Made by a program: the position numbers and the translations under genes. The notes below the pieces were generated by a model. It ran no database searches. It worked only from the letters and a program-made list of their open reading frames with translations, and had not been told where the DNA came from. From Imbricaverruca yamaguchii (lineage: Eukaryota > Arthropoda > Thecostraca > Neoverrucidae), in contig JAOTOL010000855.1 of NCBI GenBank assembly GCA_034440575.1, positions 46,001-110,000 on the forward strand: DNA of 64,000 bases. Direction: 5' to 3'. Position 1 is the first letter of the stretch, and each line of letters opens with the position of its first letter. Shown here in pieces: positions 9,933 to 57,195 of the stretch.

Positions 9933-10115
9933 CTACGACACCTTGACTTTGACCTTCTTGGCCATCTTTTTCTGCTGGCTCTGCACCTTCTCCATGACGT
10001 CGTGATCGTACGTGGAGTGCAGCATCAGCGCCAACACCCCGGCCCGGTTCGCCATGCTCTGCCGACACTGGCGCTCTTGCTCCAGCAGCTCGTCCATCTT
10101 CATCGCCCACCGCAC
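9933..10115 (-). CDS. CXXC1 coding exon 6: C-terminus and stop
   Basis: Acceptor CTCCCTACAG; encodes residues 565-624, VRWAMKMDELLEQE to KVKVKVS, then TAG (9935-9933). It matches the family end RVWYKLDELFEQERNV...NRAGLLALMLH but has a divergent Lys/Val-rich tail. Confidence 0.95.
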   Translation of the reverse strand: MRWAMKMDELLEQERQCRQSMANRAGVLALMLHSTYDHDVMEKVQSQQKKMAKKVKVKVS

Positions 10116-13100
10116 CTGTAGGGAGCACCACCACAATTATCATCGCCATCACCATGTCACCTGTCAGGAGCACCACCACTATCACCCTTACCACAATCAG
10201 CATCGCCATCACAGGAGGCACGGACCAGCACCATGTCACCTGTCAGGAGCACCACCACAATTATCATCGCCATCACCATGTCACCTGTCAGGAGCACCAC
10301 CACTATCACCCTTACCACAATCAGCATCGCCATCACAGGAGGCACGGACCAGCACCATGTCACCTGTCAGGAGCACCACCACAATTATCATCGCCATCAC
10401 CATGTCACCTGTCAGGAGCACCACCACTATCACCCTTACCACAATCAGCATCGCCATCACAGGAGGCACGGACCATCACCATGTCACCTGTCAGGAGCAC
10501 CACCATAATTATCATCGCCAGCACCATGTCACCTGTCAGGAGCACCACCACTATCACCCTTACCACAATCAGCATCGCCATCACAGGAGGCACGGACCAG
10601 CACCATGTCACCTGTCAGGAGCACCACCACAATTATCATCGCCATCACCATGTCACCTGTCAGGAGCACCACCACAATTATCATCGCCATCACCATGTCA
10701 CCTGTCAGGAGCACCACCACTATCACCCTTACCACAATCAGCATCGTCATCACAGGAGGCACGGACCAGCACCATGTCACCTGTCAGGAGCACCACCACA
10801 ATTATCATCGCCATCACCATGTCACATGTCAGGAGCACCACCACTATCACCCTTACCACAATCAGCATCGTCATCACAGGAGGCACGGACCAGCACCATG
10901 TCACCTGTCAGGAGCACCACCACAATTATCATCGCCAGCACCATGTCACCTGTCAGGAGCACCACCACTATCACCCTTACCACAATCAGCATCGCCATCA
11001 CAGGAGGCACGGACCAGCACCATGTCACCTGTCAGGAGCACCACCACAATTATCATCGCCATCACCATGTCACCTGTCAGGAGCACCACCACTATCACCC
11101 TTACCACAATCAGCATCGCCGTCACAGGAGGCACGGACCATCACCATGTCACCTGTCAGGAGCACCACCACAATTATCATCGCCATCACCATGTCACCTG
11201 TCAGGAGCACCACCACAATTATCATCGCCATCACCATGTCACCTGTCAGGAGCACCACCACAATTATCATCCCATGTCACCTGTCAGGAGCACCACCACA
11301 ATTATCATCGCCATCACCATGTCACCTGTCAGGAGCACCACCACAATTATCATCGCCATCACCATGTCACCTGTCAGGAGCACCACCACAATTATCATCG
11401 CCATCACCACGTCACCTGTCAGAGCACCACCACAATTATCATCGCCATCACCATGTCACCTGTCAGGAGCACCACCACAATTATCATCGCCATCACCACG
11501 TCACCTGTCAGGAGCACCACCACAATTATCATCGCCATCACCATGTCACCTGTCAGGAGCACCACCACAATTATCATCGCCATCACCATGTCACCTGTCA
11601 GGAGCACCACCACAATTATCATCGCCATCACCATGTCAACTGTCAGGAGCACCACCACAATTATCATCGCCATCACCATGTCAACTGTCAGGAGCACCAC
11701 CACGCAGTCAAATCGGCAAATGTGCAGGATGTCCCGACTTATTTAGCCAGTCATAGCAAACCGCGGTGGCGGCCAGGCTTTTCAAAGAGCAGGACTGAGG
11801 AGCATGCAGCAACTAGCCAATAACCAGTCTGGACAAAGCACTGGTCACAAGCCACAAGCCACTTCACTAAACAGACTATTAAAAAATAAAACCCTCAGCC
11901 TATTAGAGCTGAAATTTATAAATTTCGTCACAATAGTGCGGAAATGAGGATACATCGCTTAACAAAAAGCTAAAACAACAAACTCAAGCTAACCAAATCA
12001 AAAACAATAATTCCACACAACTTGAGGGTGAAAGCATTGGCGAAGCCTTGATATACATAATTCATGGATATTAACTATTAACGTATTGACCGGAAGTAGC
12101 CAGTCCAAAATTAATCTTGGTTTCACGCCATATGCAAATAAAGCAAGCTTTTGCTGAGGATGCAGATACGATGCCTAATTGTACACACATCATTTTCATG
12201 CAAATGCATAGTACAAGGTGAGTTCGGTACATCACTCAAACACACCACACATACCCTGAATTCAAGTAAATCTGCTAGCCGCAGCTGACACATTGCGGAA
12301 TATATTCGATGAATATGATACAGCCCGGCGAATGACACTAACAGGGCAAAACATTACACGTATATGTACACTTCTTCACTTCAGAGAACGGCTTCCACCG
12401 ACATTTCGGAAGTTGCACCAACACTAACGGCAAGTCATACAGGGTGTTGAACTCCCACCACCCACGAGTCCGCACACACGAGTTGGATGAGTTTAAGGGC
12501 GCATCGACTGTGTCGGTCATGTAGCAGACACACACGCGTATTCTGTCCAAGTCTGGCCGGCCCGTCGGCCTGGGCCACCTGAGCCGCAGGCAACACAGCC
12601 GACACGGCAGCGCTCGGCCGAGCCTCGCCGCACTCACACACAGTGCAGAGCAAACTCGTCGGCAGGACTCGTGCAATGTGGCGAAGGCGCCAGTATTGCA
12701 CGACACCAATCCAATGCCTGGATAATTACAGCGCCAAGTGTAATTAATTATTCGAGGAGAATTAACAAGGCCAACAGGCAAAACACGGAGCTAGAGTTGT
12801 GTCAACAGGTCCTAAACGCCGAGCATGCATTCCAGGACAATCAACAAGATCAACGGAGTACGCTGTCGAGGTCGTGCCAACAAGTCTTACCCGCTCCATG
12901 TCCAGCTCGGCCCGGCGTAGCTTGCCCCACGCGAAGTGCTTCAGACACTTCTTCTTCGACGCGCGGCAGAACTTGCCGGTCTCGGAGAACACGTCAGACA
13001 CCAGAGGGTAGCCGCACACCTCGTCTTCCGACACCTGTCAGCCGCCGCACGTCAGATATGGGCCGGGTCCGTGACTGATATAGGCCGGACCCACGTCAGA

Positions 13101-16100
13101 CTCAAGAGGGCAGCCGCACACCTCGTCTTCTGCCATTTACAGGGGCGGGGATGGCCAAGTGGTTAATGTGTCGGGCTATGGGTACCAAAGGTTCCGGGTT
13201 CGAATCTAGCGCCACTCAGGACATTTCCCAATCCCGCGACCCACCGGCGAAACAGTGTGGGCGGCGCCATTAGCCGTGAATGTGCATAAAGTGTGTCGTA
13301 AACCGACCAATAAACAAACAAATCGTCTTCTGCCACCTGGCGGAAAATGAGCCACCTGGCGGAAAATGAGCCACCTGGCTGGCCCGCGGATATTAACCAG
13401 CTTCACTGCGTTTCCGCCACCTCCACTAACGCAGCTACAAAACGTCCGGAACGGCATCTCCCGACCAACACAACCTCGGTCTGGAATATGGTATTAAACA
13501 GTATTGCTGTGCACTGACTATAAGTGTTGCCATGAGCAAAAGAAAAAACTTTCCTTCAGATTCGCGCATTCATCTTTTTGAGGCTTATCGTCGCATTGCA
13601 TCTCCCGAACGAATGTGATATCGAATTGCAGCGTTTTGAACCAGCAAAAAGGTTCCTTCGCTTGGATTCTGGGCGGCCGCCTTTTAGTCCGTTAATGCTG
13701 ATGGAATCTATTTTAACTTTATTTTGCATCCAAATTACCGGACACCTGAATAGCGTGTGCTGCGAGCCGGTGGGGGTTGGGGATACATGCAGGTACTGAT
13801 CACGCAAGGAAAAACGCTCCAATGTAGGACAAGGTTATCAACCTCCTCCAAACACAAGCTCCAAATCATACAGCAGAACACGAAACGCCCACCCAATCTC
13901 CTCCACACCTATCCGCACTATCATTACCATCTGCCACGCCCGAGACCCGGATGGGACGGGGCGGCGACCTGACGGGTCCACCAACATATAACACACGACA
14001 CAAACAAGACTAGTGTCAGATGCAGGCTGGACCAACGGCAGTCAGTAATGCACGCTTGTGTGGACCCCATCGAAATGCAACAGCTGCCTGAAGGAGCACT
14101 TCTGCGCAAGCTCGATCAGCGCCGAATGGCCACAACAAACCTTGGGATTTTTGCAGTGTTCCGGGCACAGTACACGCAGTCGTTTGCAGTAGGTGCGCTG
14201 CGCCGGGTTGAAGAAGTCGCAGAACATGTTGAAGCCCTCCACGCGGGTCTGGTAGAGAGAGCCGAAAGACGTCTGACTCTCGTACTTGCCGAAACACTTC
14301 TCCATGTGGCGGACGGCAATGCGCGTCGATACCTGGTTGTGACCACCAAGTGGTTAGTCAGGTGGAAGGTAAAGGTGGAGCCAGGCCGTGACCATCAGGT
14401 GGTTGGTCAGGCCGAATCTAAGGGAGGAGCCTGGTTGTAAACATTCAGGCCGCAGGGCGCATCGGCTGCCTACGTCATAACCTTGACCAGGCTAAATGCC
14501 AGAAAAGCGAAAACTACGGGGATTCTAGTTTGTACCTCACACTTCGAGGTCAGCCTCAGCGGCTACACAGGTGCGTGGCCGAGCCCTGACCAATCAGTGC
14601 ACCGAAGCAACGTGATCGCGTCATTCGGCAACACAACTTCGTGCTGGGACATATCGCCACATTATCATGACACACGCAGAGATGTACCGCCGGAGCAGTC
14701 ACGAATCTCAAACCATGTGTGTCAGCTAGATCCCAGCCGGACCTGGCGGCCACAGGCAATCCTTGACCAATGAACACACCCACACACGGCCACACGTCGC
14801 TATAGTCGGTCTGATACATGCTCTACCTCGTCATCGGGGCCGATCATCGTCGGTTGGGTCCACATCCCACGGGACCAGAGCTCACCATCGTTGGTTGGAC
14901 CCACACTCCACCTCGTCACAGGGCTCACCACCATCGGTCGCACCAGCAGCCCACCTCGTGGCCGGGGTGGTGGTGGTGGATTGAAGTTTAGGGGCGCGTC
15001 GACATCTAGGGTCATTTTGCGCCCATAACTGAATTATAATCAATCTACGGTGCTGCTATCATAGCTTACTATCCATCTTCACGGGTGGGGTGTATATCAC
15101 GTCAAGGCGAGCTTGTCGAATGAACATGAAAATATTCCCAGACGACACGGCCTCAGAGTTGTTCCCTATAAGCATACGTAAAGAAGAGTCGGTATTCAAC
15201 CGTCCTAAAATCTAGCGTCGTAGAGGATCTCGTGGGCAGGGCTCCTCATCGCTAGCCGGATCCACACTCCACCTCGTCACAGGGCTCACCACCGTCGGTC
15301 TGACCCACGGCCCACCTCGTGGCCAGGGCTCACCATCGTTGGTTGGACCAACAGCCCACCTCGTGGCCAGGGCTCACCATCGTCGGTCGGATCCACGGCC
15401 CACCTCGTGGCCAGGGCTCACCACCGTCGGTCTGACCCACGGCCCACCTCGTGGCAAGGGCTCACCATCTTCGGTCTGACCCACGGCCTACCTCGTGGCC
15501 AGGGCTCACCATCTTCGGTCTGACCCACGGCCTACCTCGTGGCCAGGGCTCACCATCTTCGGTCGGATCCACGGCCCACCTCGTGGCCAGGGCCCACCAC
15601 CGTCGGCCGTACTCACCTCGTGGCCAGGGCTCACCACCGTCGGCCGTACTCACCTCGTGGCCAGGACTCACCACCGTCGGTCTGACCCACGGCCCACCTC
15701 GTGGCCAGGGCTCACCACCGTCGGCCGTACTCACCTCGTGGCCAGGGCTCACCACCGTCGGCCGTACTCACCTCGTGGCCAGGACTCACCATCTTCGGTC
15801 TGACCCACGGCCCACCTCGTGGCCAGGGCTCACCACCGTCGGCCGTACTCACCTCGTGGCCAGGGCTCACCACCGTCGGCCGTACTCACCTCGTGGCCAG
15901 GGCTCACCACCGTCGGCCGTACTCACCTCGTGGCCAGGGCTCACCACCGTCGGTCGTACTCACCTCGTGTCCGCAGGTGACGCAGTGCACGCTGTGCTGC
16001 TCCTCCTCCGAGTCGTCCTCGAGCGCCGCCGGGTCGACGACACCGCGGCGGCCGCGCTCCATCAGCGCGTCCAGCTGGCTGTGGGCTCGCGTCAGACGCT

Positions 16101-19100
16101 CCAGCTGCGACTGCGCCTCCATCTGGTCGCGCCGGATGCGCTCCAGAGTGCGCATGTTGCGGTCCTCGGCCACGCAGCGCGTCATGTTCCACTCCTGGAT
16201 ACGCTGCGGCAGCACCTGTTGGAGAGGTAGCGGTCGTGGTCCAATTCTAGATGTACCGCGGTAGTACCTATGGGGGTATAGAGGTCTTGTTCCACCCCTG
16301 GGCACTACGTAATGGTGCGTGGTGGAGGCTCTCAAGACTCGAATATGGCGCTGTTACACCCGAGGGAGTAGCTAAAGCTGTGTTCCGCAGTGATAATGTC
16401 TGAGGAGATAATGGTAGGTTTTCTCTGGCGACGCAGTGCTAGCGCCTGAAACGTGGGTGGAAATCGTGCTCCCGGTAGCACATGAAGGAGATAGGAAATA
16501 CTTGAGCATGGTGGGAAAATAGACTCTTTCTGGGTTTTTGGCATCTAGAAAATTATCCTCTTGTTTGTCTAATTTGGAGACTAAATTGTGCTGGTTGGCA
16601 ATGACTGTTGTAAAGTGATTAATCGCAACTGGAAAGTGCACGCTGAGAGTCTGATGTCACAGGTTTTACGAAAAACATCCTCTTTGCATTCAGTTGCCCC
16701 AAAATGTCCCTTTCTACATCCAGGATTACAAAGTGCAAATCCAACCCCAACATAGAGAAGTTCAAGCTCCACTGCAGGATAAGGCGCGGTGATATCACCT
16801 CTGGATATATTAGATGGGGTGACTACGAGAGGGGTCGTGGCCCGCATGAGGATGCCCTGGGTTAGCGCTCGAAGGGGCGGTGCGTGGGGTTGCGGGCACC
16901 CGAAGGTAGCCTGGACATCCCTGCATGCTCCAAGGTAACATATGAGGATGAGGGGTGTCACCCCTGAGGTGGTAGGCCACTTCCGAATATGCTATATGGG
17001 TTGAAACGGTGTTTGATGGATTTTTTCAGCACAAAAATATATAATCCACAGGACGCATTTATCCGCTAATGTAAGCAACGATGTAGGCAACAACGATGCA
17101 TGTGCTAACCCATAGAGGTGGTGTTGACTGGTGGTTGGTGGTGATGGTGATGGTTGGTGGTGATGGTGATTGGTAGTGATGGTGACTGATGATGGTGCCT
17201 GGTGGTGATGGTGACTGATGGTGATGGTGCCTGGTGGTGATGGTGCCTGGTGGTGATGGTGACTGGTGGTGATGGTGACTTGTGGTGATGGTGACTGGTG
17301 ATGATGGTGACTGGTGGTGATGGTGACTGGTGGTGATGGTGACTGGTGGTGATGGTGACTGTTGGTGATGGCGACTGATGGTAATGGTGGCTGGTGGTGA
17401 TGGTGGCTGGTGGTGATGGTGAATGGTGGTGATGGTGGATGATGGTGATGGTGTTGATTGGTGGTGATGGTGACTGGTAGTGATGGTGACTGGTAGTGAT
17501 GGTGACTGGTGGTGATGATGACTGATAGACAGACAGGGGTCGTCGATTGCGTAAAGCGAATCGTATTCTACGGAGGATACGACGCTGTAGTACCTGAGGA
17601 AGAAGTAGATCATTAAGAGCTTCAGGATGCACTACAACAGCGTCCAGGGAGTGGACAGGAGGCTTCATTTAGAGGTACCCTGCTAGAGAAGCTGAGGAAG
17701 GGTTACGAGCAGTAACCTCTCTTGCACATGGTGTAGCAGCAGGTGAGCAGCAGCATATGGCACTGAATGTAATCAGCAGCGAACAAAGATCATTACAGAC
17801 ACCGAAAGCAAGAGGACTGCAGGAGACGATATACATTCACCAGTCACCGATGCAACCAGCGAACGAACATCACACGACGCGCGCAGTGGCAGTCAGGCGG
17901 GTGACAGTCACGCACCTGGAAGATCCTGTTCCTGGCCAAGTTGAGGCCACACTGGTTGGAGCAGTAGCGGCTGCCGACACGGTTCGGCTTGACACACTGC
18001 GGGCCGCAGCACTGCTTGGCCGTCACGTCCGCCTCCTCCTCGGCGTCCTCGGAGAGCGGCCTCTTGCGGCGGCGGCGGCCGGGCCCGGCCTCCGCCGACT
18101 TCTTGCGGTCGACGGCTCTCTGGCGCAGCGGCGTCGGCGTCGGCGCCGTCTCGACCGGCGGCGGCGTGGCCGGCCGCTGGTTGGACTCGCGCAGCGGCGG
18201 AGACGCACGACTCGCCGGCGGCTCGGGCGACGGGCAGCCGACGCACAGCCGCTTCTTGCAGGGCCGGCCGAGGTGGCCGTCGCCACCGAAGGCGGGCATG
18301 TCGCGGCAGGCGGCGCAGCGGCCACACTCCGAGGCGCGCTGGCACGGCACGCAGCGGCCGCAGCCGGCCGGCGGCGCCACCCTCTCCTGCGGCCGTGCCA
18401 CACGCACCTCCTTCCTTTCGCGCGCCTTCTCGCGCTCCTCCTTCGACTTCTTGTCGAGCTTCTCCTGCTTGCCCTGCTTTTCGTGCTTATCTAGCTTCTC
18501 CTGTTTGTCGTGCTTGTCATGCTTCTCCTGCTTGTCATGTTTCTCCTGTTTGTCATGTTTCTCCTGTTTGCCATGTTTCTCCTGTTTGTCATGTTTCTCC
18601 TGTTTGTCGTGCTTCTCGTGTTTGATGATATGCTTCTCCTGCTTGTCATGTTTGTCGTGTTTGTCGTGCTTGTCGTGTTTGTCACGCTTGTCATTCTTCT
18701 CGGAGCTTCTATCGGTTTTCTCGACCTTATCTGATTTCTCGACTTTTTCTGACTTCTCAATTTTCTCGTGCTTCTCGTGCTTCTCACCCTTCTCACGTCC
18801 GCTAGGCTTGCTCTTTTCTTTGTATTTTATTTTTAGGTTTGGATCCTTCTTGCGACAGAGGTGACAGAAAAAGCGCTGTGGAATAAATGCGCGTAATTAG
18901 CAGATGCTAGCCTTCGCCAACTACTGCGATCGGCAGCCATAAACAAACACTTGTAACCTTTAAGCTGGAACAAAACAATTGTACCCAGGGAGCGAAAGGG
19001 ACCCCCTAGTGTCTAAGGAAGGGGCACTCTCCCCTCCCCAGGATCCAAATTCTACCCCTGGCTCGGCCCCATGCAAACACTGCTGCTCTGAAGGTACCTC

Positions 19101-20190
19101 CCCTTAGTTCCTGGAGATTACCTCGATAAGAACGAAAACATATCCGCAAAAGTGCATGACTAAAGGTAGCATCTAGCGTTGTTCGATTTCACTTCACTAC
19201 AGGGATTTAAAAAAGGAAAGAATACACAGATTGGATCATTTTCAGGATTAAAATTATCCAGCGTACCAGCTGTTTCACTCCACACAACCCACATGATGTC
19301 ATGTGTACCAGATGTTTCACTCCATACAGCCCACATGATGTCGTGTGAACCTGCTGTTTCTTCACACAACCCACATGATGTAATGTGTACCAGCTGTTTC
19401 ATTCCACACAACCCACATGATGTGTGTATCTGCTGTTTAACTCCACACTCACAGTTCCAGTGTACGATCTAGAATCGATTAGGTTTCCACAAATGCAAAA
19501 ACACATGCATGCACAAGTACACACAGCAACAACCAACGGAAGCACTTGTACACACAGCAACAACCAATGGAAGCACATGTACACACAGCAACAACAAACA
19601 GAAACATATGTAGAGTTAAATTTTGTAGATGAAATACAGAAATCACGCGTGGAATGCCTATCCGATATCATTTCACAGCTCTGACACTTTGTTTGAATTT
19701 GCCATGAAAATGTTAAAACAAACATGTGTAAGGAGGCGGTGGTACGCCTGCCTCCGCCCGTGCCCGGCGGTGCGCGGCGTGGTGACCGGGCTAACGCATG
19801 GAAGCAGCAGCGGCGTGGGCGGGGCCGGCGGTCCGGCGGGCGCCTCGTGTTGTGCGCACGTGCTGTGGCTGAGTGCGCCTCTACGACGGCGCGCCCGGGG
19901 CCATCCGGTGGAGACTTCGGGTCGCTTTGGCGGAGGACCCGAGGTCGGGCCCGGGACGCGATGGCGCCAGGTTGTGGGTGCGATGCGCTATCCATGAGCG
20001 ACTAGGCCGGATACAAATGGAAAGTGTGCCTCAAATACAAGAGCTGTGGCCAGGAGACTCAGGTTTGCAACCGAGCAGTAAAACGTAGCCTACCATTGGA
20101 GCCTACACATGCATACCACAGCATTATGCCTACATGAAACACAATGACCAGTATATAACAAATCAATGTTTACATACACCATATTATGCT

Positions 20191-20248
<58 letters not shown>

Positions 20249-20627: not shown

Positions 20628-21900
20628 CTGCGGCAGCAGCACGAATTTCACCAGACAGAAAGGACCACCTATCCAGGTACAGAATACCAATTGTTTGATT
20701 TGAGGGAGAAATGACATTTAGATGAGTAAGTCTATCCACGTCTACCTCAGAACATGATGTATCATACCTCAGAATATGGTGTTCAATGTATAATCTACAG
20801 ATTCTGGATCATGTGCAACACATGACTGCTGATCATTATCCAACCCGACCTCATGCATACCTCTACCAGAAATAAAATGGCTGGCAAGCTCATCCAGCAA
20901 GCTCATCAAGTTCTTAACTATGACTAAAACCAGTTTGACAGAACTAGTTGATCATCAAGATTTAGTTTAGCAACTTACCAAAAATGTATTACTACACAAA
21001 CTGCATTGCTGCTATCCACTTTGGAACCATCAAATCCTAACATCACTTGCACTGCCATTAGTAATAACAGCAGTACCCAGAAATTCTGGCCTTAGTCCCA
21101 ATTTCTGGCCAAATGTGATCTGGGTGGGAAGCAAGGGGATGTGAAACTAAGGGAATGAAGGGGAATTAAGGGAAGTAAACATTTTTGCACTCTGGATTCA
21201 TACTGGATAGAATGGGCATCACATGTACTCCTGCACAAATGTGGGAACAAATATGTCAATAAAAACAAACAGATAATAACACCCACAAAAATGGTGGTTA
21301 TTCCACTTCCAGTTCCCACTCAAATTAACCACTTTTCATAGTAGTTAGCAGCATGACCACAGCCTCCCACACTTCTCTGAATCTAACCACTGGAATTGCA
21401 CACCACAATGCACCAACAGCACATGCAAAACAGAGACCATGCACACTGAGTACAAAGTTATCAGGCTCTAGAGCTGTGCCACTGAAAATCTGCATTCTTG
21501 CCATCCATATAGTGGAATACTTGGCAGTTTTAAGAGACATCCTCTGGAGTCCCAGAGGTAGTCAATCAGAAATTGCTTTATCTTTTATTCTTTTGAAATT
21601 TGTCTGTCAACCAATTGATGAAAATGTATTTTATATGATGGCATAACCATTAGCAACTTTGAACACATGGTTAATGGTGTCATAATGCAAACACAAGACC
21701 TTAACTGATCCTTTGCTTTGCTCATAGCTAAATGACGTAACATCCAGCCATGGTATGAGCAATAGCAGTGTTGGGTCCATATTACAATGGAAATTGGCTT
21801 CATAGGTTGCTATGCATTTTGAGCTGAAGTTAAAGTGTAGATTAATTTTGTTTGTTTTTCATATGGCTAGCCATGTACTGAGACCAACAGTGGAAGCATG
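20628..21900. other. CXXC1 upstream region, no recognised feature
   Basis: It should hold the 5' UTR exon and promoter of CXXC1 (minus strand), since the ATG exon starts at an acceptor, but I could not identify either. No coding similarity was seen. Confidence 0.45.
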
Positions 21901-47900: not shown

Positions 47901-50900
47901 TCTGCTTGCTCACCGTCGGGCACTTCAATAGTCACCGTATGATACGAACATGTAATGCAGCGCCCAGCGTGTAATGTACACTGCAGGGGCCCGCAAACCA
48001 AATTATCAATGTTGACAACACACGAATAATCTCCAGAGGCTAGACATTCACACACAACATACACATCGGACATGTCGCGTTGGACGTTTTCGAGACGACC
48101 ATCACAATCACCGCCTGCTCCCCTTATCACAGCAACGCTCACTATACGACATCCACGATCCAGCCAAAGCCCAAAGCTTTCAGCAACCGTTCAGCTCAAC
48201 GCTCATTCGGGATCCACTCTTCCCCTCTAGGAGCGCCTCTGCAGAGCATATCGTGACGGTGAGCCGACCCCGGCCACTATGTCACGAGGCACACAGAAGA
48301 CGGACCGGTCTCCACGGCCGATGCTAGCAGGCGGCCAGAACGACACATCGAATGTGCCGGGCGCACCAATCACTGGATACGTAGCGAACCGATGCCCATG
48401 CTCCTCCTACACTGATTAAGCTGACGATATTTCCACCGGCCGTGGGAGACTTCGCAGGCCATTTTCTCAGCATTTAAACACATTTATGAACACATCAATA
48501 ACATTCCTCCCCGATGCTAACTGAATAGCCCGGAAAGCGAAATCACAACGGTCCAAATTTTCCTAATTACATTATTAGTTCACAAGACACAGCCTAAAGT
48601 GAAGAATTGGTGATCTGGGTGTAATGAATGAACTTGATCGCACATCCACCTTAGATTCGCACGAATGCCAATTACTTAATTTGCACAAGCTACATATAAT
48701 ATAATCATGAAGCAGCTTCGCGCCTCGGTTCAATGACTTATTACTAACCCTCGGAGTTGGTCGATTTATTTTGACGCATTTTATCGCAGTGACTAGACTG
48801 CCCGACTGTCTGCTTGTGACTACTAGATTGCCTGCTTTGTGCCCATAGACCACCGACTGCCAACACTGCGTCAGCTATGTTGTGGGAAGGACGCTGCAGG
48901 CTACAATGGTGATTTGATGTGGAAGAGCGCGTCCGTCATGCACGGCCAGTTTACGTCTATATTCTGCAGGCTACGCTTCCAGTATGCGGCTACCTTCCAT
49001 CGGAACCAACCAGCGCGGCTGGGATGCCGGGACTGCTGTCACGCCAGCAGCACAGATCCAACACAATCCGTATCGGCACAACAATTAACACCGGTGCGCT
49101 CCACGGCAGCACAGAACAGCACAGCACAGGACATCACAGTAAAATGGAACACTCTATAGCACACTACACAACACAACATCTGGGACACTAGACACTGACG
49201 CTCTGCTGAACCTGCCCAGGCAGACGAAGTACAGGCAAACACATTACAGCACAGCACAGCACAGCACAGCACAATACAGCGAAACACGCTACAGCACACT
49301 ACACAGGACAAGAGACCACACCGGGATGTGCCGCTGCAGATGGTCAGGTGTGAATCCAGAGGACGCGGAAGTTTGTCCAGACTCATTGGAGAAGGGCGTA
49401 GTTTTTGATACACTAATCGGTCTGGAAATGGCATGGAACGCCATGTGTGGTGGTGCCGTCCCTGCCATGAGTTCCAGCCTAACAGTGGACAGAACGACTG
49501 GTCAGAAGCAGCTAAGCGTACCCGAGCACAGGACAATACAGCGTGCAACCTCACCGCAGAAAGCCAAGTACCCCGGACGACTCACGTACATGGCATGAAA
49601 CATAGCACAGCACAGCACAGCTCATCACATCACAGCACACACCAGACTGGCGAGCGCGCCGCGGGCCGACACACCAGGCAGAAGGCGCGCCGTCGCCATG
49701 GTTACCGGCGGGGAAGTCGGCCGGGTCGAGGCCCAGCCGGTAGCCGTCCATGGCCTGCAGCAGCAGCTGGTAGCACTGGCCCCAGGACGGCTGCGGGTTC
49801 TGCGACGCCACGAACCGCATGGCCGCCACCCGCCGGAAGAACGCCGCCTTCCGGTGGAAGCCGCACTGGGCGTACAGCTCCGACAGCGTCGTGAACCGCT
49901 GGATCTGCCGACGGCCGCCCACACAGTGTAACACATCGGATCAGTCGACAGTACCAGGTGGCAGCCACTGGATCAGTCAGCGGCCGCCCACAAAGTATAA
50001 CACATCGGATCAGTCGACAGTACCAGTTGGCAGCCACTGGATCAGCCGGCAGCCGCCCACAAAGTATAACACATCGGATCAGTCAACAGTACCAATTGAC
50101 AGCCATTGGATCAATCGTAGTCTATCAATTCTAACCCACTGGATCATTTGCCGGGCATCAATTGTGAGCGAACGACTCAGATATCAGCATGGTAGGTTGT
50201 GAACCGATGGACCAGGTCCAATTTGTGGCCCGTGGGCCGTTAGATCTGCAGGTAAATGTTGATTATGAGCCTCCACTGATCCAGCACAATAGGTAGGTTG
50301 TGAGTCGTTAGACCTGTAGGTGGAAGTTGATTACGAGCCACCGAACCAGTACATGGGGTGGACTGTGAGCAACTCGATTTATCGGCAGGGCTAATGATGG
50401 TCCGAGGAGCGTCGTGACGCGTCGGTCACACACTACTCAATCAGCGGAAGTCACCGTCATGATATACAGGCTGACTGCGCGAGACGGGGACCTTGCCGTC
50501 ACATGCTGTGGCCAGCCCTCCTCAATGTAGCCCTCTAGTCGTATGATGCCTTGCCTTGCCTTGCCACAGCCCAGACATTCCTCACACAGACTCATATTGT
50601 CTGAACATGACGCATGGCACGCGCGCAGTAAGGCCTTTCACATGACGCAAACCGGATGGGGCGGCGCGGGGGCGGGGAGGGGGCTGGGCGGGGCGGATTT
50701 CAGCCGTCGTTAGATCAACTCCTGAAACTATGAACATACACATTGGAAATGAAATTAAGGCGGCGTGATTAAGGATCTCTGCAGTACAAATTTGATGACC
50801 CTAGAGCGACATCTTCAGAGACAAATGAGGTAAAATGCGTCACATGTTATAATTTCATGGTTGATAGGGTGGGTGGTGCATGGTTATGGGTGGTGCATTG

Positions 50901-53900
50901 AAGTGCAATCAAAGCGAAGCTGCTAAAACGCATACATTCACGAGTATTGCAATGCGCAATACACATGACGGGGTCAACTGGTGACAGCTGGACCGGACGC
51001 GATCCCAAGCGGGAAACACCAGGGTAGGGAAAATGGACTGTTCCTGGATTCACAACATCATCCTCCCCAGCAAATAATCCTCTCATCTTCCCCATTTTGA
51101 AGTTGAATAGTGTCTTTGACAATGAACTGACTGACTCACAATGAACTGCTGTGTGATGAAGTGCTCAGCCCTGTCAGTAGTCGATTGCCTTAATTTTCCT
51201 CTCCGCATCGATGATACAAAACACAAATTCAGCCTTGGTCGACACCCGGCTGCAGCGGGCTCAACCGGCGCGACGCCTGACCCACCGCCTGATCACCGCC
51301 TGACCGCCGCCTGACCGCCGCCTGACCACCGCCTGACCACCGTCGGACCGCCGCCTGACCGCCGCCTGACCGCCGCCTGACCGCCGCCTGACCGCCGCCT
51401 GACCGCCGCCTGACCACCGCCTGAACACCGCCTGACCGTCGCGCCGGCGAAAGCTTGTTGGCGGCAGGTCGGCCGCAGGTCGGTGGAGTCTGCACCCACA
51501 TGGCTTCCATATTTTCTAACTGATTTAAAAAGACATTTTGTATTGAATGCGATTTTCAATTTGCAACAGTAATTAACTCGCATTGCCATGTGAGATGCCT
51601 TCGAAGAAGAGGAAGAGCACCCCATCGGTTCGGTTCTGATGTTAAGGCCACTATTTGAAAGATATACGAATGGAGCCACTACACGGAATTGGAACTCGTA
51701 GCTGGGAGCACTGGCTCGTTGAGTTGAGAGCCTTGGGAAGCTTTGAATTGAAATACCATCTGTCAATTAGCTATCGGCTGGTACTGGTGAAGAAAAAAAC
51801 GCTCACTTCCTGCACCGCCGTTAAAAATCGTCCAGCTATTTCCTGCCGCGCGGTAAAACACAGCGGGGACGTGACCATTACTTGCCACACGAACAACCCG
51901 GGGCGCCGCCTGCCCGTGAGTCTGAGTCATCCTTCCCCGTGTACGACTGATGCAGTCGTGACGTTCAATGTGATGTACCGAGCACTCGCTTGAAGTCAAC
52001 TCCAGACCAAGTAAATTAAATAAAATAAAATAAAATAATGCGGCCAATACGGCGTAATACGGCGTCAATACGGCGTCAACGATGCGGCCAAAACGGCGTC
52101 AATACGGCATCAATAATGCAGCCAACGCGGCGTCAATACGCAGTGTTCCTCGGTACCGCCTGACCATAACTTGGTGACAGGTGACAACGACAAACTACGC
52201 ATCAACAACATGGCGGCTAACAGCAGCAGAATCATACACCGAGCCGCAAGGTCAGAGGATCCAGTACCAGTCAAACGGGGCACAGTGGCAATGCCATCGT
52301 TAGTCAGAGAGGGTGCAGGTGATGTGACAGTCCGGGTAATCCACCACATCGTGACCAGCGACATGCCATGTCATAACGAGCTCACTGGTCACACACATTC
52401 TGCACAAGAACTAACACCAATATGGCAGCGTGACACACAACGACCAGTTTCCAGTCAGCAGAATATGGGTTTGTAAGGATTCAAGGTGAACAAAGCTTGC
52501 ATGACCCATTGCCTTCCTTTCACCACCTAAGCACTGCCGGGCCAATCTGCCGTAGATGTTAACTGGCTGAGTTTAGTGTGCCTAACCCTGAAGATGCCAC
52601 TCTCCAATAGCCTGCGTGTCTGTTTGCTGCTGGACATCACCTTGAGTAGTCATAAGCTGACGAATGGCAACATCGGGTCATTTCTTACGATCAGGCGCAC
52701 TTGGCTCCTCGCCACCCCGGACCGGCCGGTTATGGCACGACCCGTCCCGCGCCCACATGTGACCGGTCTCGAGATGACTGGCACTGGTACATGACCTGCC
52801 GACCTGACCGCTATGATGTCTGACCTCGCCGATACGTGACTGCCTTTTCACCGAGTCGAAACTGACAAGTCACTTCACATCATGGCTGGAGATCCCGGGT
52901 GGGCCGCGAAATCCGTTTTGATACCCTGCTAATCAGTGATAAACCATGCGTGAAATACGGCGGAATATACCACGTATTGAACAATGAATCGACATCCTTC
53001 CAAAGAGGTATCGACGTGCTTCTTGGTGTGTGCTTGTAAAGCTATCCATGCCTAGTTTCTAACAGTATTCAGCTTATAAGCATCATGTTCATACTCACCA
53101 TAACGGATTTTGGATTGTGACAGCGAACATCCCGTGGTGCAATGCCAGGTAAACGGATTACCTATGCCGTGCTATGCTATACATTGCCAGTTGATAGTTG
53201 ATAGCATATAGCATATAGGCACCGACCTTCTCATCGTCCGACAGCTGCAGGTTGATGAAGACGACGTTCTGCAGGAACTCAGCGGCCATCAGGTAGCGTC
53301 GCTGCTCGATCAGCACGTGCACTGCCTTCAGACTGCACTCGGTCTCGATCACACCGGCGTGCCGGTACTGGCGGCGAGGACAGCGTCAGTCGCCAACCAC
53401 TCGGTCTCGTGCCGGTACTGGCGGCACGGACAGCGTCAGCCGCCAACCACTCGGTCTCGTGTCGGTACTGGCGGCGAGGACAGCGTCAGTCGCCAACCAC
53501 TCGGTCTCGTGTCAGTACTGGCGGCGAGGACAGCGTCAGTCGCCAACCACTCGGTCTCGTGTCGGTACTGGCGGCGCGGACAGTGTCAGTCGCCAACCAC
53601 TCGGTCTCGTGTCGGTACTGGCGGCGAGGACAGCGTCAGTCGCCAACCACTCGGTCTCGTGTCGGTACTGGCGGCGAGGACAGTGTCAGTCGCCAACCAC
53701 TCGGTCTCGTGTCGGTACTGGCGGCGCGGACAGTGTCAGTCGCCAACCACTCGGTCTCGTGTCGGTACTGGCGGCGAGGACATTGTCAGTCGCCAACCAC
53801 TCGGTCTCGTGTCGGTACTGGCGGCACGGACAGCGTCAGTCGCCAACCACTCGGTCTCGTGTCGGTACTGGCGGCGCGGACAGTGTCAGTCGCCAACCAC

Positions 53901-56379
53901 TCGGTCTCGTGTCGGTACTGGCGGCACGGACAGCGTCAGTCGCCAACCACTCGGTCTCGTGTCGGTACTGGCGGCGCGGACAGTGTCAGTCGCCAACCAC
54001 TCGGTCTCGTGTCGGTACTGGCGGCGAGGACATTGTCAGTCGCCAACCACTCGGTCTCGTGTCGGTACTGGCGGCACGGACAGCGTCAGTCGCCAACCAC
54101 TCGGTCTCGTGTCGGTACTGGCGGCACGGACAGTGTCAGTCGCCAACCACTCGGTCTCGTGTCGGTACTGGCGGCGAGGACAGCGTCAGTCGCCAACCAC
54201 TCGGTCTCGTGTCGGTACTGGCGGCGGGGACAGTGTCAGTCGCCAACCACTCGGTCTCGTGTCGTATGGCCACCACCACACCGGTCTCGTGTCAGTACTG
54301 GCGGTACGGACAGCGTCAGTCGCCAACCACTCGGTCTCGTGTCGGTACTGGCGGCACGGACAGCGTCAGTCGCCAACCACTCGGTCTCGTGTCGGTACTG
54401 GCGGCACAAACAGCGTCAGTCGCCAACCACTCGGTCTCCACCACCACACCGGCGTGTCAGTACTGGCGGTACGGACAGCGTCAGTCGCCAACCACTCGGT
54501 CTCGTGTCGGTACTGGCGGCGCGGACAGCGTCAGTCGCCAACCACTCGGTCTCCACCACCACACCGGCGTGTCAGTACTGGCGGTACGAACAGCGTCAGT
54601 CGCCAACCACTCGGTCTCGTGTCGGTACTGGCGGTACGGAGGGCAGCGTCAGTCGCCAACCACTCGGTCTCGTGTCGGTACTGGCGGCACGGACAGCGTC
54701 AGTCGCCAACCACTCGGTCTCGTGTCAGTACTGGCGGCACGGACAGCGTCAGTCGCCAACCACTCGGTCTCGTGTCGGTACTGGCGGCGCGGACAGCGTC
54801 AGTCGCCAACCACTCGGTCTCGTGTCAGTACTGGCGGCGAGGACAGCGTCAGTCGCCAACCACTCGGTCTCGTGTCGGTACTGGCGGCACGGACAGCGTC
54901 AGTCGCCAACCACTCGGTCTCGTGTCGGTACTGGCGGCGGGGACAGCGTCAGTCGCCAACCACTCGGTCTCGTGTCGGTACTGGCGGCACGGACAGCGTC
55001 AGTCGCCAACCACTCGGTCTCGTGTCGGTACTGGCGGCGAGGACAGCGTCAGTCGCCAACCACTCGGTCTCGTGTCGGTACTGGCGGCGCGGACAGCGTC
55101 AGTCGCCAACCACTCGGTCTCGTGTCGGTACTGGCGGCGCGGACAGCGTCAGTCGCCAACCACTCGGTCTCGTGTCGGTACTGGCGGCGCGGACAGCGTC
55201 AGTCGCCAACCACTCGGTCTCGTGTCGGTGCTGGCGGCGCGGACAGCGTCAGTCGCCAACCACTCGGTCTAGTGTCGGTACTGGCGGCACGGACAGCGTC
55301 AGTCGCCAACCACTCGGTCTCCACCACCACACCGGCGTGTCAGTACTGGCGGTACGGACAGCGTCAGTCGCCAACCACTCGGTCTCGTGTCGGTACTGGC
55401 GGCACAAACAGCGTCAGTCGCCAACCACTCGGTCTCTTGTACTGGGGACACCACCACACCGGCGTGTCGGTACTGGCGGCACGGACAGCGTCAGTCGCCA
55501 ACCACTCGGTCTCGTGTCGGTACTTGCGGCGCAGACAGCGTCAGTCGCCAACCACTCGGTCTCGTGTCGGTACTGGCGGCGGGGACAGTGTCAGTCGCCA
55601 ACCACTCGGTCTCGTGTCGGTACTGGCGGCGAGGACAGTGTCAGTCGCCAACCACTCGGTCTCGTGTCGGTACTGGCGGCGCGGACAGCGTCAGTCGCCA
55701 ACCACTCGGTCTCGTGTCGGTACTGGCGGCACGGACAGCGTCAGTCGCCAACCACTCGGTCTCGTGTCGGTACTGGCGGCACGGACAGTGTCAGTCGCCA
55801 ACCACTCGGTCTCGTGTCGGTACTGGCGGCGGGGACAGCGTCAGTCGCCAACCACTCGGTCTCGTGTCGGTACTGGCGGCACGGACAGCGTCAGTCGCCA
55901 ACCACTCGGTCTCGTGTCGGTACTAGCGGCACGAACAGCGTCGGTCACCAACCACCAATGGGAAAAAATTCAGTATGGCTTGATAATGCATGCTTAATGG
56001 TAATACATTCCCTCATCATCTGAAGCTCACATCATTCTCAACCTAATTTTAGTTTCCGTTCTTGAGAGCCTATCTTTTATTTTCTTACAGTCCTTCAGTA
56101 TTCTCGACATTTTGATCTTCATCTGCACAGTTAATGGAAAGGTAATGTTAAGGCGCTGCCAATTACTCTGGATCTTCACATCGACTAGCAGTACTAGTCG
56201 ACAATGTCAGAAGGTCAGGAGTCAGACGGTGCCGATGACTCACCTTGCTGTAGTGCACCACCGACTCGCGGTACTTGTCGACAATGTCAGAAGGCGTGAG
56301 ACAGTTCTTGGACGCCTCCAGAAACTCGGTTGGCTCGATTCCGTGCGGCAGCGAGTTGGTAGCGGCCACCGCCGGCCGG
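34223..56379 (-). CDS. TRAPPC9 (NIBP/Trs120), 3' part of gene, 13 exons
   Basis: A subunit of the TRAPPII tethering/GEF complex acting on Golgi and recycling membranes (Rab activation). Thirteen exons with matching phases encode about 879 residues of the C-terminal portion; vertebrate proteins are about 1100-1250 residues. Recognised in order are KNCLTPSDIVDKY, GVIETECSLKAV, AAEFLQNVVFINLQL, GFHRKAAFFRRVAAM, SSRRMGNIALAVRHLTFLL, GPFIFSPL, FKWVEGELSQVEL, VVDVVPALPQLQLSTS, a Ser/Arg-rich insert, VRYSGGPG, CYLVLDVLNATEHEL and VYQDQQNG, each matching the family in order. It covers the helical-repeat middle and the beta-sandwich C-terminal half. The N-terminal part (longin-like/TPR start) is not in the recognised exons. 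Introns total about 19.5 kb and hold many tandem arrays that begin at splice sites. Confidence 0.94.
34582..35503 (-). other. TRAPPC9 intron
   Basis: Contains a GTCAGAC-type microsatellite (35383-35458) about 45 bp from the donor. Otherwise nothing was recognised. Confidence 0.6.
35383..35458. repeat. CGTCAGA microsatellite
   Basis: About ten copies of the 7-10 bp unit CGTCAGACGTCAG. It lies near, but does not include, the donor at 35503. Confidence 0.93.
35504..35720 (-). CDS. TRAPPC9 exon with WSAAMLDALRM
   Basis: Acceptor TTGCCGCCCAG, then VRRSGSD; conserved HVSSRVTLGWR and LDALRMCPVRW correspond to IHSKLGICWRI and LEHLQLAPLQW of the human protein. Donor GG|GTGAGT, phase 1 out. Confidence 0.92.
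35994..36150 (-). CDS. TRAPPC9 exon with LDVLNATEHEL
   Basis: Acceptor GTCGCCCCAG. Encodes TPTSCYLVLDVLNATEHELEM to CPLDVRHV; matches CHLLLDVFNSTEHEL. Donor GTG|GTACGT, phase 0 out, agreeing with the next exon. Confidence 0.93.
36151..37056 (-). other. TRAPPC9 intron
   Basis: Includes a G run of 18 (about 36635-36652). No other feature was recognised. Confidence 0.55.
37057..37199 (-). CDS. TRAPPC9 exon with VRYSGGPG
   Basis: Acceptor CATGTTCGGCAG; encodes AVECILAVRYSGGPG to KWDVLPAE, matching LEAVLNFKYSGGPG and VEVEPSVFFTRVSTLPA. Donor AC|GTGAGT, phase 2 out. Confidence 0.94.
37526..37764 (-). CDS. TRAPPC9 exon: Ser/Arg-rich insert
   Basis: Acceptor CCACCTTCCCGCAG. Encodes AADSASLSGSQAPS, a run of Ser/Ala/Arg/Gly, then SVQEMRYSSK. 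Phases fit both neighbours (1 in, 0 out, donor AAG|GTGTGT). Low conservation here is usual for this linker. A SINE ends 13 bp upstream of its acceptor side. Confidence 0.88.
37778..37944 (-). mobile_element. tRNA-derived SINE, family A, copy 2
   Basis: Same head and body as 8093-8265 (B box GGTTCGAGTCTC, tail CCAATAACCAACCAA). Target-site duplication GGGAAGGTGG at 37768-37777 and 37945-37954. It lies 13 bp from the acceptor of the TRAPPC9 exon starting at 37764, in the same orientation as the gene. Confidence 0.92.
38127..38287 (-). mobile_element. tRNA-derived SINE, family A, copy 3
   Basis: Third family A copy with B box GGTTCGAGTCAC and the same body (CGCGACCAATCGGTGTGAGA), same orientation, 180 bp upstream of copy 2 in gene sense. 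No clear target-site duplication. Confidence 0.88.
38288..39060 (-). other. TRAPPC9 intron
   Basis: Loose CCACTGACG/CACCATC repeats at about 38690-38960, resembling those at 40890-41160. Nothing else was recognised. Confidence 0.5.
39061..39152 (-). repeat. Perfect 46-bp two-copy duplication across a donor
   Basis: Two identical 46-bp units (39061-39106, 39107-39152). On the minus strand each holds AACGATGTGGAAG|GTTAGC, i.e. the last 13 bases of the TRAPPC9 exon at 39140-39351 plus its donor, then GGTGGTGGTGGTGGCCGATTG. Confidence 0.96.
39140..39351 (-). CDS. TRAPPC9 exon with LSLHNASSQPVELLEV
   Basis: Acceptor TGCCCGTACAG. Encodes SHEVTLSLHNASSQPVELLEV to DFVLHGNDVE; matches [20 protein letters not shown] and the PLQPGKVATFTINIK block. 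Donor GAAG|GTTAGC, phase 1 out. Confidence 0.93.
39352..39956 (-). other. TRAPPC9 intron
   Basis: Contains the 18-bp duplication GAGGTCGCACGTGGAGGT-like at 39380-39450 and the dispersed cassette at 39752-39812. Confidence 0.6.
39752..39812 (+). repeat. Dispersed short cassette, copy 2
   Basis: Near-identical to 14965-15031: GGATTGGAGTTTAGGGGCGC, then TCGACATCTACGGTCATTTT and GCGCCCATAA. Confidence 0.65.
39957..40164 (-). CDS. TRAPPC9 exon with VVDVVPALPQLQLSTS
   Basis: Acceptor CGCTGTCCAG. With G from the previous exon it reads GYSGTVLGVRSNCRL to LYAGE; matches GYHTTVFGVFSDCLL and VEVIPALPRLQISTS. Donor GAGAG|GTGGGT, phase 2 out. Confidence 0.95.
40165..41282 (-). other. TRAPPC9 intron, non-array part
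   Basis: Irregular decayed repeats with CCACTGACGTCCACACCACC themes at 40890-41160. No coding was recognised. Confidence 0.5.
41283..44179 (-). repeat. 31-bp donor-site minisatellite, TRAPPC9 intron
   Basis: About 2.9 kb of a 31-bp unit. On the minus strand each unit reads CAGGTCACCATCACCG|GTGG, then GTCGCTCCGGA: 16 exon bases (coding QVTIT) plus the donor of the exon at 44180-44392. The first copy beyond the exon (44112-44160) is longer and repeats more of the exon (GTGGGCGCCCCGCAGGCGCC). Segments at 41890-42300 and 43190-43860 are irregular with many indels. No stop codon occurs in the minus frames over long distances because 31 is not a multiple of 3 and the unit lacks stops. Confidence 0.96.
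44180..44392 (-). CDS. TRAPPC9 exon with FKWVEGELSQVEL
   Basis: Acceptor GCCTGTCGGCAG. Encodes DFKWVEGELSQVELSVENLL to GAPQAPGQVTIT(G); matches FQWVQGDVCEVQLMVYNP and LVGVPQTTGTITVNGY. Donor ACCG|GTGGGT, phase 1 out. The exon end is the source of the 31-bp array. Confidence 0.95.
44393..45646 (-). other. TRAPPC9 intron
   Basis: TA microsatellite at 44888-44952 and a cassette core (TTTAGGGCGCATCGA) near 45267. Otherwise nothing was recognised. Confidence 0.6.
44888..44952. repeat. TA microsatellite
   Basis: Uninterrupted (TA)n in the TRAPPC9 intron. Confidence 0.95.
45647..45789 (-). CDS. TRAPPC9 exon with GPFIFSPLQFASL
   Basis: Acceptor GTGTCGGCAG, completing an Arg codon. Encodes RFRPLEYPPQLRPLPLSQPKPDDHGPFIFSPLQFA...KEKL; matches the KSPFIYSPI segment before FQWVQGD. 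Donor CTGG|GTGGGT, phase 1 out. Confidence 0.92.
45998..46039. repeat. 22-bp duplication beside a SINE
   Basis: GGCAGGCGACTTCATGGTTT occurs twice in tandem (about 45999-46020 and 46021-46042). The second copy contains the SINE target-site duplication. Confidence 0.85.
46040..46219 (-). mobile_element. tRNA-derived SINE, family B, copy 2
   Basis: Minus-strand copy of the 13136-13322 SINE: A box TGGTTAAGGTG region, B box GGTTCGACTC, same body and (AAAC)n-like tail. Target-site duplication GGCGACTTCATGGT at 46026-46039 and 46220-46233. Confidence 0.93.
46416..46689 (-). CDS. TRAPPC9 exon with SSRRMGNIALAVRHLTFLL
   Basis: Acceptor GCCGTGTTGCAG. Encodes (G)QVSGWSALQTQLLQELAGSSRRMGN to YCLPLV(R); matches [27 protein letters not shown] and LTLPPVPFTKLPIVR. 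Donor TCAG|GTCAGT, phase 2 out. Confidence 0.95.
46687..46870 (-). repeat. 92-bp two-copy duplication across an acceptor
   Basis: Two copies offset by 92 bp. On the minus strand both contain GGCCGTGTTGCAG|GTCA, the real acceptor plus the first exon bases (GTCAAGTG in the exon, GTCACGTG in the copy). Confidence 0.88.
47011..47072 (-). repeat. 29-bp duplication with acceptor-like sequence
   Basis: Two copies of ACTGACCTGCAACGGGTCAT plus GCGCACA. Minus strand reads CCGTTGCAG|GTCAGT, resembling the 46689 acceptor, so it may be an outlying part of that duplication. Confidence 0.75.
47665..47800. repeat. About 47-bp repeat, three copies
   Basis: Imperfect copies of CCAGCCTCCGCCTGGTCTAC plus AACGGAATC. 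Confidence 0.75.
47890..48142 (-). CDS. Unrecognised open frame, Cys-rich
   Basis: Minus-strand open frame of about 84 codons with SDVYVVCECLASGDYSC, NLVCGPLQC and GRCITCSYHT: seven Cys with regular spacing, inside a TRAPPC9 intron. It could be a fragment of a secreted Cys-rich protein or a chance frame. No family recognised. Confidence 0.2.
49110..49275. repeat. CAGCA microsatellite
   Basis: Stretches of (CAGCA)n at 49115-49132 and 49240-49275 in the TRAPPC9 intron; a further short stretch is at 49603-49640. Confidence 0.85.
49706..49904 (-). CDS. TRAPPC9 exon with GFHRKAAFFRRVAAM
   Basis: Acceptor GGCCGTCGGCAG. Encodes IQRFTTLSELYAQCGFHRKAAFF to LGLDPADFPA(G); matches [29 protein letters not shown] and the YSLSLDPKDFSRG end. 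Donor GCCG|GTAACC, phase 1 out. Confidence 0.96.
49905..50115 (-). repeat. 69-bp tandem repeat at an acceptor, about three copies
   Basis: Units spaced 69 bp. Minus strand: real junction GGGCGGCCGTCGGCAG|ATCCAGCGG; copies read GGGCGGCTGCCGGCTG|ATCCAGTGG and GGGCGGCCGCTGACTG|ATCCAGTGG. The junction context is repeated but AG is TG in the copies. Confidence 0.9.
51280..51445. repeat. 11-bp minisatellite GACCGCCGCCT
   Basis: About 14 units with GACCACCGCCT variants. Stop-free minus frames through it are by-products. Confidence 0.95.
52015..52140. repeat. TAAAA run and AATACGGCGTC repeat
   Basis: (AATAA)n at 52012-52037, followed by about eight degenerate copies of AATACGGCGTC with AATGCGGCCA variants. 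Confidence 0.85.
53227..53367 (-). CDS. TRAPPC9 exon with AAEFLQNVVFINLQL
   Basis: Acceptor CTCGCCGCCAG. Encodes YRHAGVIETECSLKAVHVL to LQLSDDEK; matches YKNAGVIELEACIKAVRVL and [21 protein letters not shown]. Donor AAG|GTCGGT, phase 0 both sides. Confidence 0.95.
53368..55965 (-). repeat. 50-bp acceptor-site minisatellite, TRAPPC9 intron
   Basis: About 52 units. On the minus strand each reads GCCGCCAG|TACCGACACG, then AGACCGAGTGGTTGGCGACT: the acceptor plus the first exon bases of 53227-53367 (TACCGGCACG...GAGACCGAGTG) with 11-12 bases removed. A few units (near 54440, 54550, 55320, 55450) keep extra exon-like bases (CACGCCGGTGTG), so they are closer to the exon. Plus-strand open frames of up to 862 codons are by-products. 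Confidence 0.96.
56180..56243 (-). repeat. Duplicated exon segment past a TRAPPC9 donor
   Basis: Minus strand CCTTCTGACATTGTCGACTA plus GTACTGCTAGTCGATG copies the exon stretch CCTTCTGACATTGTCGACAA plus GTACCGCGAGTCGGTG (56244-56379), offset about 80 bp, on the intron side of the donor. Confidence 0.85.
56244..56379 (-). CDS. First recognised TRAPPC9 exon, KNCLTPSDIVDKY
   Basis: Acceptor ATGTGACCGACAG. Encodes (.)RPAVAATNSLPHGIEPTEF...KNCLTPSDIVDKYRESVVHYSK; matches [22 protein letters not shown]. Begins with the third base of a codon (phase 2 in). Donor AAG|GTGAGT. The preceding exon was not identified. Confidence 0.93.
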
Positions 56380-57195
56380 CTGTCGGTCACATGCGGTCAC
56401 GAGTCAGTATTAACGACCGGTTGTCGGTCACATGTAGTCACAAGTCAGTGGTAACGACCGGCTGTCGGTCACATGCGGTCACGAGTCAGTATTAACGGCC
56501 GGCTGTCGGCCATACGCAGTCACGAGTCAGGGGTAACGGCCGAATGTCGGTCACATGCAGTCACGAGTCAGTGGTAACGGCCGGCTGTCGGTCACATGCG
56601 GTCACGAGTCAGTATTAACGGCCGGCTGTCGGTCACATGTAGTCACGAGTCAGTGGTAACGGCCGGCTGTCGGTCACATGCAGTCACGAGTCAGTGGTAA
56701 CGGCCGGCTGTCGGTCACACGCAGTCACGAGTCAGTGGTAACGGCCGGCTGTCGGTCACATGCACATGTAGTCACGAGTCAGCGGTAACGGCCGGCTGTC
56801 GGTCACATGTAGTCACGAGTCAGTGGTAACGGCCGGCTGTCGGTCACATGCAGTCACGAGTCAGTGGTAACGGCCGGCTGTCGGTCACACGCAGTCACGA
56901 GTCAGTGTTCAGGCCGGGTGTCGGTCACATGTAGTCACGAGTCAGTGGTAACGGCCGGCTGTCGGTCACATGTAGTCACGAGTCAGTGGTAACGGCCGGC
57001 TGTCGGTCACACGCAGTCACGAGTCAGTGTTCAGGCCGGGTGTCGGTCACATGTAGTCACGAGTCAGTGGCAACGGCCGGCTGTCGGTCACATGTAGTCA
57101 CGAGTCAGTATTAACGGCCGGTTGTCGGTCACATGTAGTCACGAGTCAGTGGTAACGGCCGGCTGTCGGTCACACGCAGTCATGAGTCAGTGGCA
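56380..57195 (-). repeat. 41-bp acceptor-site minisatellite, TRAPPC9 intron
   Basis: About 19 units of 41 bp. Minus strand: ACATGTGACCGACAG|CCGGC, then CGTTACCACTGACTCGTGAC. The real junction is CATGTGACCGACAG|CCGGC followed by CGGCGGTGGCCGCTACCAAC, so unit and exon share the acceptor and the first exon bases with a small deletion. Confidence 0.94.

Follow-up and report, generated by a model that had tools for sequence, protein, structure and literature searches.

In a 64,000-nucleotide stretch of the genome of the barnacle Imbricaverruca yamaguchii (hereafter the window; positions 46,001–110,000 of contig C622 (JAOTOL010000855.1), in an assembly of 767 Mb in 1,430 contigs), tandem arrays lie across many splice junctions of two minus-strand genes, identified by Pfam and homology searches as CXXC1/CFP1 and TRAPPC9/Trs120. 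The locus raises the question of whether splice junctions themselves seed duplication or whether duplications are tolerated there because splicing hides them, two possibilities that a preliminary description of the window had put forward. We find that junction-straddling arrays are a common and real class and that the excess of array edges at junctions is only modest. Tolerance through splicing explains most of the pattern, which is probably the product of general minisatellite turnover in GC-rich (guanine- and cytosine-rich) genes, filtered by splicing.

Analysis with Tandem Repeats Finder (TRF) showed that 7 of the 34 window junctions have an array edge 3–80 bp inside the exon and an array extending into the intron (donors 15964, 44180 and 39140; acceptors 53367, 49904, 46689 and 10115). 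The preliminary description had listed ten junctions with a duplicated exon edge; TRF and direct alignment together place eight of these on firm ground and leave one marginal (10115), whereas 14332 fails, its best upstream matches in direct alignment repeating intron bases and one exon base only. These arrays all lie on the minus strand. In CXXC1, the unit of the donor 15964 array (15269–15969) takes in the last 6 exon bases and GTGAGTAC, and the donor word CACGAG/GTGAGTAC (the slash marking the junction) is repeated approximately every 37–44 bp. Acceptor 13034 has an extra copy of the exon start (13092–13135; 44 bp, 89%) that, by direct alignment, starts one base inside the exon, and a second partial copy (22 bp, 82%; approximately 13318–13339) that includes CAG. 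At the marginal acceptor 10115 (10113–11703), approximately 3 exon bases fall within the TRF array, and direct alignment gives a gapped 57 bp match at 74%. In TRAPPC9, donor 44180 borders an array of approximately 3 kb (41285–44246; 31 bp unit, up to ~90 copies), in which 52 copies could be matched with the junction word and 51 of them keep GT, and donor 39140 has a perfect two-copy duplication of 46 bp with 13 exon bases inside (39060–39152). The acceptor arrays of this gene are those at 56379 (56373–57206; 41 bp unit, ~20 copies, AG kept in 14/19, with a 100% copy of 27 bp across the junction, 7 bp of it exonic, in direct alignment), 53367 (53358–55955, ~2.6 kb; 50 bp unit, ~50 copies, AG kept in 49/49 intronic copies found), 49904 (49899–50113; 69 bp unit, 3.1 copies) and 46689 (46682–46876; 92 bp unit, 2.1 copies). 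The coding exons are intact and the arrays extend into the introns; the units vary in length and the number of copies ranges from 2 to ~90, all as originally described. The splice site is likewise part of the unit in most of the firm cases; the exception is 49904, at which exon bases are repeated but AG is kept in 0/2 copies found.

The junctions were defined with a purpose-written spliced protein-to-DNA aligner. CXXC1 (coding exons at 9936–20613, minus strand, first residues not placed) was recognized by its zf-CXXC, PHD and CpG_bind_C Pfam matches and by tblastn and spliced alignment to Pollicipes pollicipes CXXC1 (37–95% identity, exon by exon, in tblastn), giving a model with 5 introns. 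For TRAPPC9 (PF08626 match; 42 homologues), the coding exons of the C-terminal two thirds (34229–56379, minus strand) were modelled by spliced alignment to a profile of 12 homologues (columns 342–1143 of 1156), giving 12 introns; the exons match those of Amphibalanus amphitrite TRAPPC9 at 54–80% identity, exon by exon, in tblastn, and a PDB search with the TRAPPC9 draft returned no match at 1e-3. The models were edited by eye: donor 39140 was restored, and a bogus last intron and three bogus introns within a CXXC1 coding repeat were removed. That repeat is an in-frame tandem array of 18–36 bp units, rich in Lys, His, Asp and Glu, in the long CXXC1 exon (18435–18692, minus strand). The edited models contain 17 introns and 34 junctions, to which is added acceptor 56379, whose upstream exon was not placed.

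The window had been chosen by its reader for showing the pattern, and kinesin genes elsewhere in the genome therefore provide the fair test. The Pfam kinesin family has 126 exon matches in the genome, of which 73, in 19 genes, are covered by the 20 regions taken. Loci were chosen with matches fitting ~10 kb (one 19 kb) and roughly a dozen longer or weaker ones were omitted, which biases the sample towards compact genes. Spliced alignment to a kinesin profile yielded 77 introns; one locus (L038), a near copy of another (L037), was dropped from later counts, which rest on 150 junctions in 75 introns of 18 genes. Straddling arrays (edge 3–80 bp inside the exon; TRF period of at least 15) were found at 12 of the 150 junctions, one of them in a dubious intron (L051, 6667), and an array edge within −80 to +20 of the junction at 19. 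A single exon of L037 carries both an acceptor and a donor array, with units that include 50 and 52 exon bases. Straddling arrays occur on C1411, C1362, C1247, C1407, C1308, C1123, C1403 and C622. Junction arrays make up one part of a broader load of minisatellites: approximately 14% of kinesin intron bases lie within arrays, and 48 of 74 arrays are interior to introns.

The preliminary description had the arrays begin at the junction, which we reject: the unit straddles the junction, and its exon share is broad (median 0.35; Kolmogorov–Smirnov test against a uniform distribution, p = 0.10 for 20 hand-entered values). Donors and acceptors with an array edge within −80 to +20 number 12 and 14, respectively (L038 left out). 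TRF periods range from 23 to 224 bp and vary between genes. A dispersed satellite or mobile repeat family with a preference for splice sites is barely conceivable, and no observation was found in its favour. One array, that at 53367, was searched genome-wide by way of a 201 bp stretch, whose 16 matches all lie within that same array. A search of 20 junction arrays against 253 kb of window and kinesin sequence (matches between arrays within the window left out) recovered only the mutual match of L037 and L038 and, between L044 and L046, a weak hit of 55 bp. Apart from these, the compared loci share no unit, and the 53367 array is private genome-wide; a single repeat family is accordingly rejected, in agreement with the earlier view of unrelated local arrays.

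Array edges are concentrated around junctions, with a density of 1.40/kb within −80 to +20 compared with 0.45/kb further in. Against a uniform density, 26 edges were observed versus 8.3 expected (p = 7e-7), with an excess in units of at least 30 bp (21 versus 4.6) and none in shorter units (5 versus 3.7); the excess is also found for arrays of at most 3.5 copies (14 versus 4.8). Random intron points gave a similar picture (14/154 versus 3.8, p = 3e-5, L038 included). Both of these nulls ignore array length and GC and so overstate the effect, and we rely instead on permutation and GC-weighted nulls. When arrays were moved at random within their own intron, with up to 80 bp of exon overlap allowed, the 26 edges in all genes compared with 12.6 expected, and the 19 in kinesins with 10.2 (p = 0.002); removal of six dubious introns left 18 versus 9.4 (p = 0.0015; same null, no GC weighting). 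For straddling kinesin arrays, the corresponding values were 12 versus 7.9 for all units (p = 0.08; within-gene null 7.1, p = 0.04) and 11 versus 5.3 for units of at least 30 bp (p = 0.008; within-gene null 4.9, p = 0.005). Composition accounts for part of this: junction windows have a mean GC of 0.61, compared with 0.49 inside introns, and the intron edge rate is 1.20/kb at GC of at least 0.65, compared with 0.21–0.50/kb in lower bins. The GC-weighted null for kinesins gave 19 versus 13.1 (1.45-fold, p = 0.038). The enrichment of array edges over shuffled intronic positions, a test that the preliminary description had proposed genome-wide, stands at approximately 2-fold in the genes sampled, and lower in kinesins once GC is weighted. 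Base coverage (score of at least 20) is not raised, with junctions in repeats at 12/150 compared with 55/396 random intron positions in kinesins, and 7/34 compared with 22/90 in the window. Junctions exceed chance by array edges and not by base coverage, and their proposed role as seeds of duplication is only weakly supported.

One explanation for the edge excess is that splice junctions are true hot spots, at which transcription, splicing, R-loops or exon–intron chromatin boundaries break or re-copy DNA and so start duplications. The steep edge density near junctions, the persistence of the excess in arrays of few copies and in units of at least 30 bp, and the residue left by GC weighting all speak for it. 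In the independent genes, however, this residue is small, straddling arrays of all unit lengths exceed expectation only marginally (more clearly for the longer units), the units are not anchored at a fixed offset, and donors and acceptors are about equally affected, so no single splicing signal is prominent. We regard this explanation as quite unlikely.

The arrays show signs of turnover, as would be expected of the continuing process that had been suggested from their range of copy numbers. The exon shared by L037 and L038 is identical over 371/371 bp, yet both of its arrays differ in unit number: the first has 10.7 versus 9.7 copies (71 extra bases, unit 74) and the second 8.3 versus 10.0 copies by TRF (58 extra bases aligned, unit 57). 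The two loci lie ~570 kb apart on C1362; either they were duplicated recently or one of them is a second haplotype that has been misplaced. They may be paralogous and not allelic, and form a natural pair for following array turnover. The same pair bears on the concern that the arrays are assembly artefacts or collapsed or expanded repeats. Copy numbers of long arrays may indeed be inexact, as they come from the assembly only and not from reads, but unrelated arrays occur at many loci (the kinesin ones on seven contigs of 0.75–3.9 Mb), the two- and three-copy cases are short, and two arrays recur in the separate copies L037 and L038. An artefactual origin is highly improbable.

Comparison of paralogues dates some arrays relative to their introns. 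In the pairs L044/L046, L047/L049 and L034/L035, the intron is common to both members, at the same place and in the same phase, and only one member has the array; those arrays are therefore younger than the introns. This bears on the birth of introns by tandem duplication of an AG/GT segment, a route to intron gain that the preliminary description noted as already proposed; the arrays would then be the remains. Intron gain of this kind, by tandem duplication of AGGT, is reportedly represented by potato RdRp and other cases (the Rogers model). The barnacle arrays resemble it in that the duplicated segment carries a splice signal, and many units contain AG/GT as the model requires; the idea has also been proposed for amphioxus globins (PMC3087553). 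They differ in lying at one end of introns that are also present in paralogues: no compiled junction array reaches both intron ends, and the three pairs above share the intron with the array in one member only. We reject intron gain by duplication, which is most improbable here.

As the preliminary description had anticipated, the introns are stocked with decoy splice sites: among the junction-word copies that lie in introns, 190 in 19 arrays, 177 keep GT or AG (the 14/19 of acceptor 56379 counted separately). Such retention might suggest that selection maintains the surplus splice sites, perhaps as a reserve or as splicing regulators, and splice bases did appear better kept than other positions when copies were compared with the functional copy (13 arrays up and 2 down of 18, p = 0.007). 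This first measure was an artefact, because the constrained functional copy served as the reference. In a copy-to-copy comparison of nine arrays with at least 4 copies each, the excess is gone (0.976 for splice bases versus 0.952 for other positions; mean rank 0.52), and only 8/20 units have a length divisible by 3. Decoys decay like other unit positions, with no visible selection removing or keeping them. We therefore reject selection for decoy sites, a very unlikely explanation, and on the basis of the unit lengths also reject units that keep the reading frame. The donor 44180 array is stop-free within a 756-codon open frame that includes the TRAPPC9 exon (42156–44426, minus strand), and failed splicing would therefore read far into the array; several myosin and kinesin exons elsewhere lie in open frames of 500–1,080 codons, perhaps for the same reason.

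We propose that turnover filtered by splicing would operate as follows. Short tandem duplications (~30–100 bp) would arise continually in the GC-rich gene DNA of the barnacle, possibly through slippage or error-prone repair at microhomologies. Those wholly within coding sequence would be lost, whereas those within introns or straddling a junction would persist. Straddling duplications would survive because a complete exon edge and a working site, which the spliceosome presumably uses, are still provided by the exon-proximal copy, and the other copies are spliced out. The arrays would then grow, shrink and homogenise like any minisatellite, expanded by slippage and unequal exchange. The remaining ~1.5-fold junction excess may come from the duplication-prone GC-rich DNA of exons. 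Speaking for this account are the array load of introns at large, the base coverage that is not raised at junctions, the large share of junction arrays already expected under permutation and GC weighting, the higher edge rate in GC-rich intron DNA, the broad exon share of the unit, the lack of shared units, the decay of decoys in step with other positions, and the unit-number differences between L037 and L038.

Several points weigh against this account. The rise and loss of exonic duplications are steps that we infer. An excess is left after correction for length and GC (all genes, 26 versus 13.6, p = 0.0005; kinesins, p = 0.027–0.038), with GC weights that themselves rest on few edges. It is strongest in units of at least 30 bp and in high-identity arrays, which hints at a higher birth rate at exon edges, and edge density drops off sharply, to its lowest value (0.37/kb) in the first 21–200 bp of introns. 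Behind the leftover excess could stand a greater proneness to duplication either of exon DNA or of the junctions, two sources that the data do not tell apart. A broader claim, that exon edges are genuine birth hot spots for 30–100 bp duplications throughout this animal's genome, beyond what GC and splicing tolerance produce, is unlikely on the present evidence.

The preliminary description held that a junction bias of this kind, if genome-wide, would be new; however, arrays of this kind are already described in amphioxus and chicken, and those of the barnacle, real and striking as they are, are not a new kind. The amphioxus 'mirages' (in Adh3, the globins BflGb6 and BflGb9, PGBD5 and TnC) are minisatellite-like duplications of intron–exon boundaries (PMC3087553, PMC3902484). 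The likeness is close: tandem duplications cross the exon–intron boundary at donors or acceptors, with AG or GT in many copies and varied units (PMC3087553, PMC3902484). The barnacle arrays are likewise boundary-spanning minisatellites with a splice signal (except for the 49904 copies without AG), found at 5′ as well as 3′ boundaries, and their unit lengths vary between genes. Instability of length between alleles is another mark of mirages (PMC3087553, PMC3902484), as is an mRNA splicing that stays regular despite the decoys. The barnacle belongs to a different phylum, has several arrays per gene and up to ~90 copies, and provides a per-junction count with controls; its arrays are known from the DNA of one assembly alone, without RNA or allele data, unlike mirages.

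In chicken, 'sequence stuttering' or 'exon stuttering' denotes imperfect local tandem copies, within the intron, of an exon edge and its donor or acceptor; they occur alongside arrays that are purely intronic, are linked to GC-rich coding DNA and leave exons unaltered (PMC12954441). There, 190/236 stuttering introns are on dot chromosomes, out of 5,572 dot introns (190/5,572); a genome-wide screen exists, population length variation was measured, and replication stress, G-quadruplexes, repair and meiotic conversion are offered as possible mechanisms (PMC12954441). The barnacle arrays share the strictly local repeat origin (as judged from the one array searched genome-wide) and the association with GC-rich coding DNA. 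They differ in that straddling arrays lie on eight contigs, not assigned to a chromosome class, and are seemingly spread out, and in that 12 of 75 kinesin introns carry them, under a less strict criterion (3 or more exon bases). No report of such arrays in barnacles or other crustaceans was found in searches of open-licence literature, and the terms 'tandem repeat' and 'minisatellite' are absent from the searched portions of the Capitulum mitella, Balanus improvisus and Pollicipes pollicipes genome papers. For Daphnia pulex, one report states in one place that repeats with units of >8 bp are much rarer in introns than elsewhere, and in another that introns have the highest density whatever the range of unit sizes (PMC3152781); we draw no inference from these statements.

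Other features of the window were noted in passing. By-eye judgement of plus-strand frames suggests a mariner/Tc1-type transposase (22333–23353), the end of a non-LTR (non-long-terminal-repeat) reverse transcriptase (21882–22298) and cytochrome P450 exons (7363–8062). An array with a 24 bp unit (62831–64000) reaches the window end.

A phenomenon of amphioxus and of special bird chromosomes is now found in a crustacean genome, on eight contigs of a small sample. This makes testable the idea that GC-rich exon DNA is duplication-prone everywhere, with splicing deciding what is seen. The arrays, with dozens of near-identical donors or acceptors in a row, are natural constructs that bear on how the spliceosome chooses the exon-proximal site, and they are a trap for gene predictors and assemblers. 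Were junctions to prove true hot spots, the growth of introns and their decoy splice sites would share a mutational source; barnacle introns would steadily gain length and fill with copies of the splice sites that bound them, and three distant lineages, amphioxus, birds and barnacles, would share one exon-linked duplication process.

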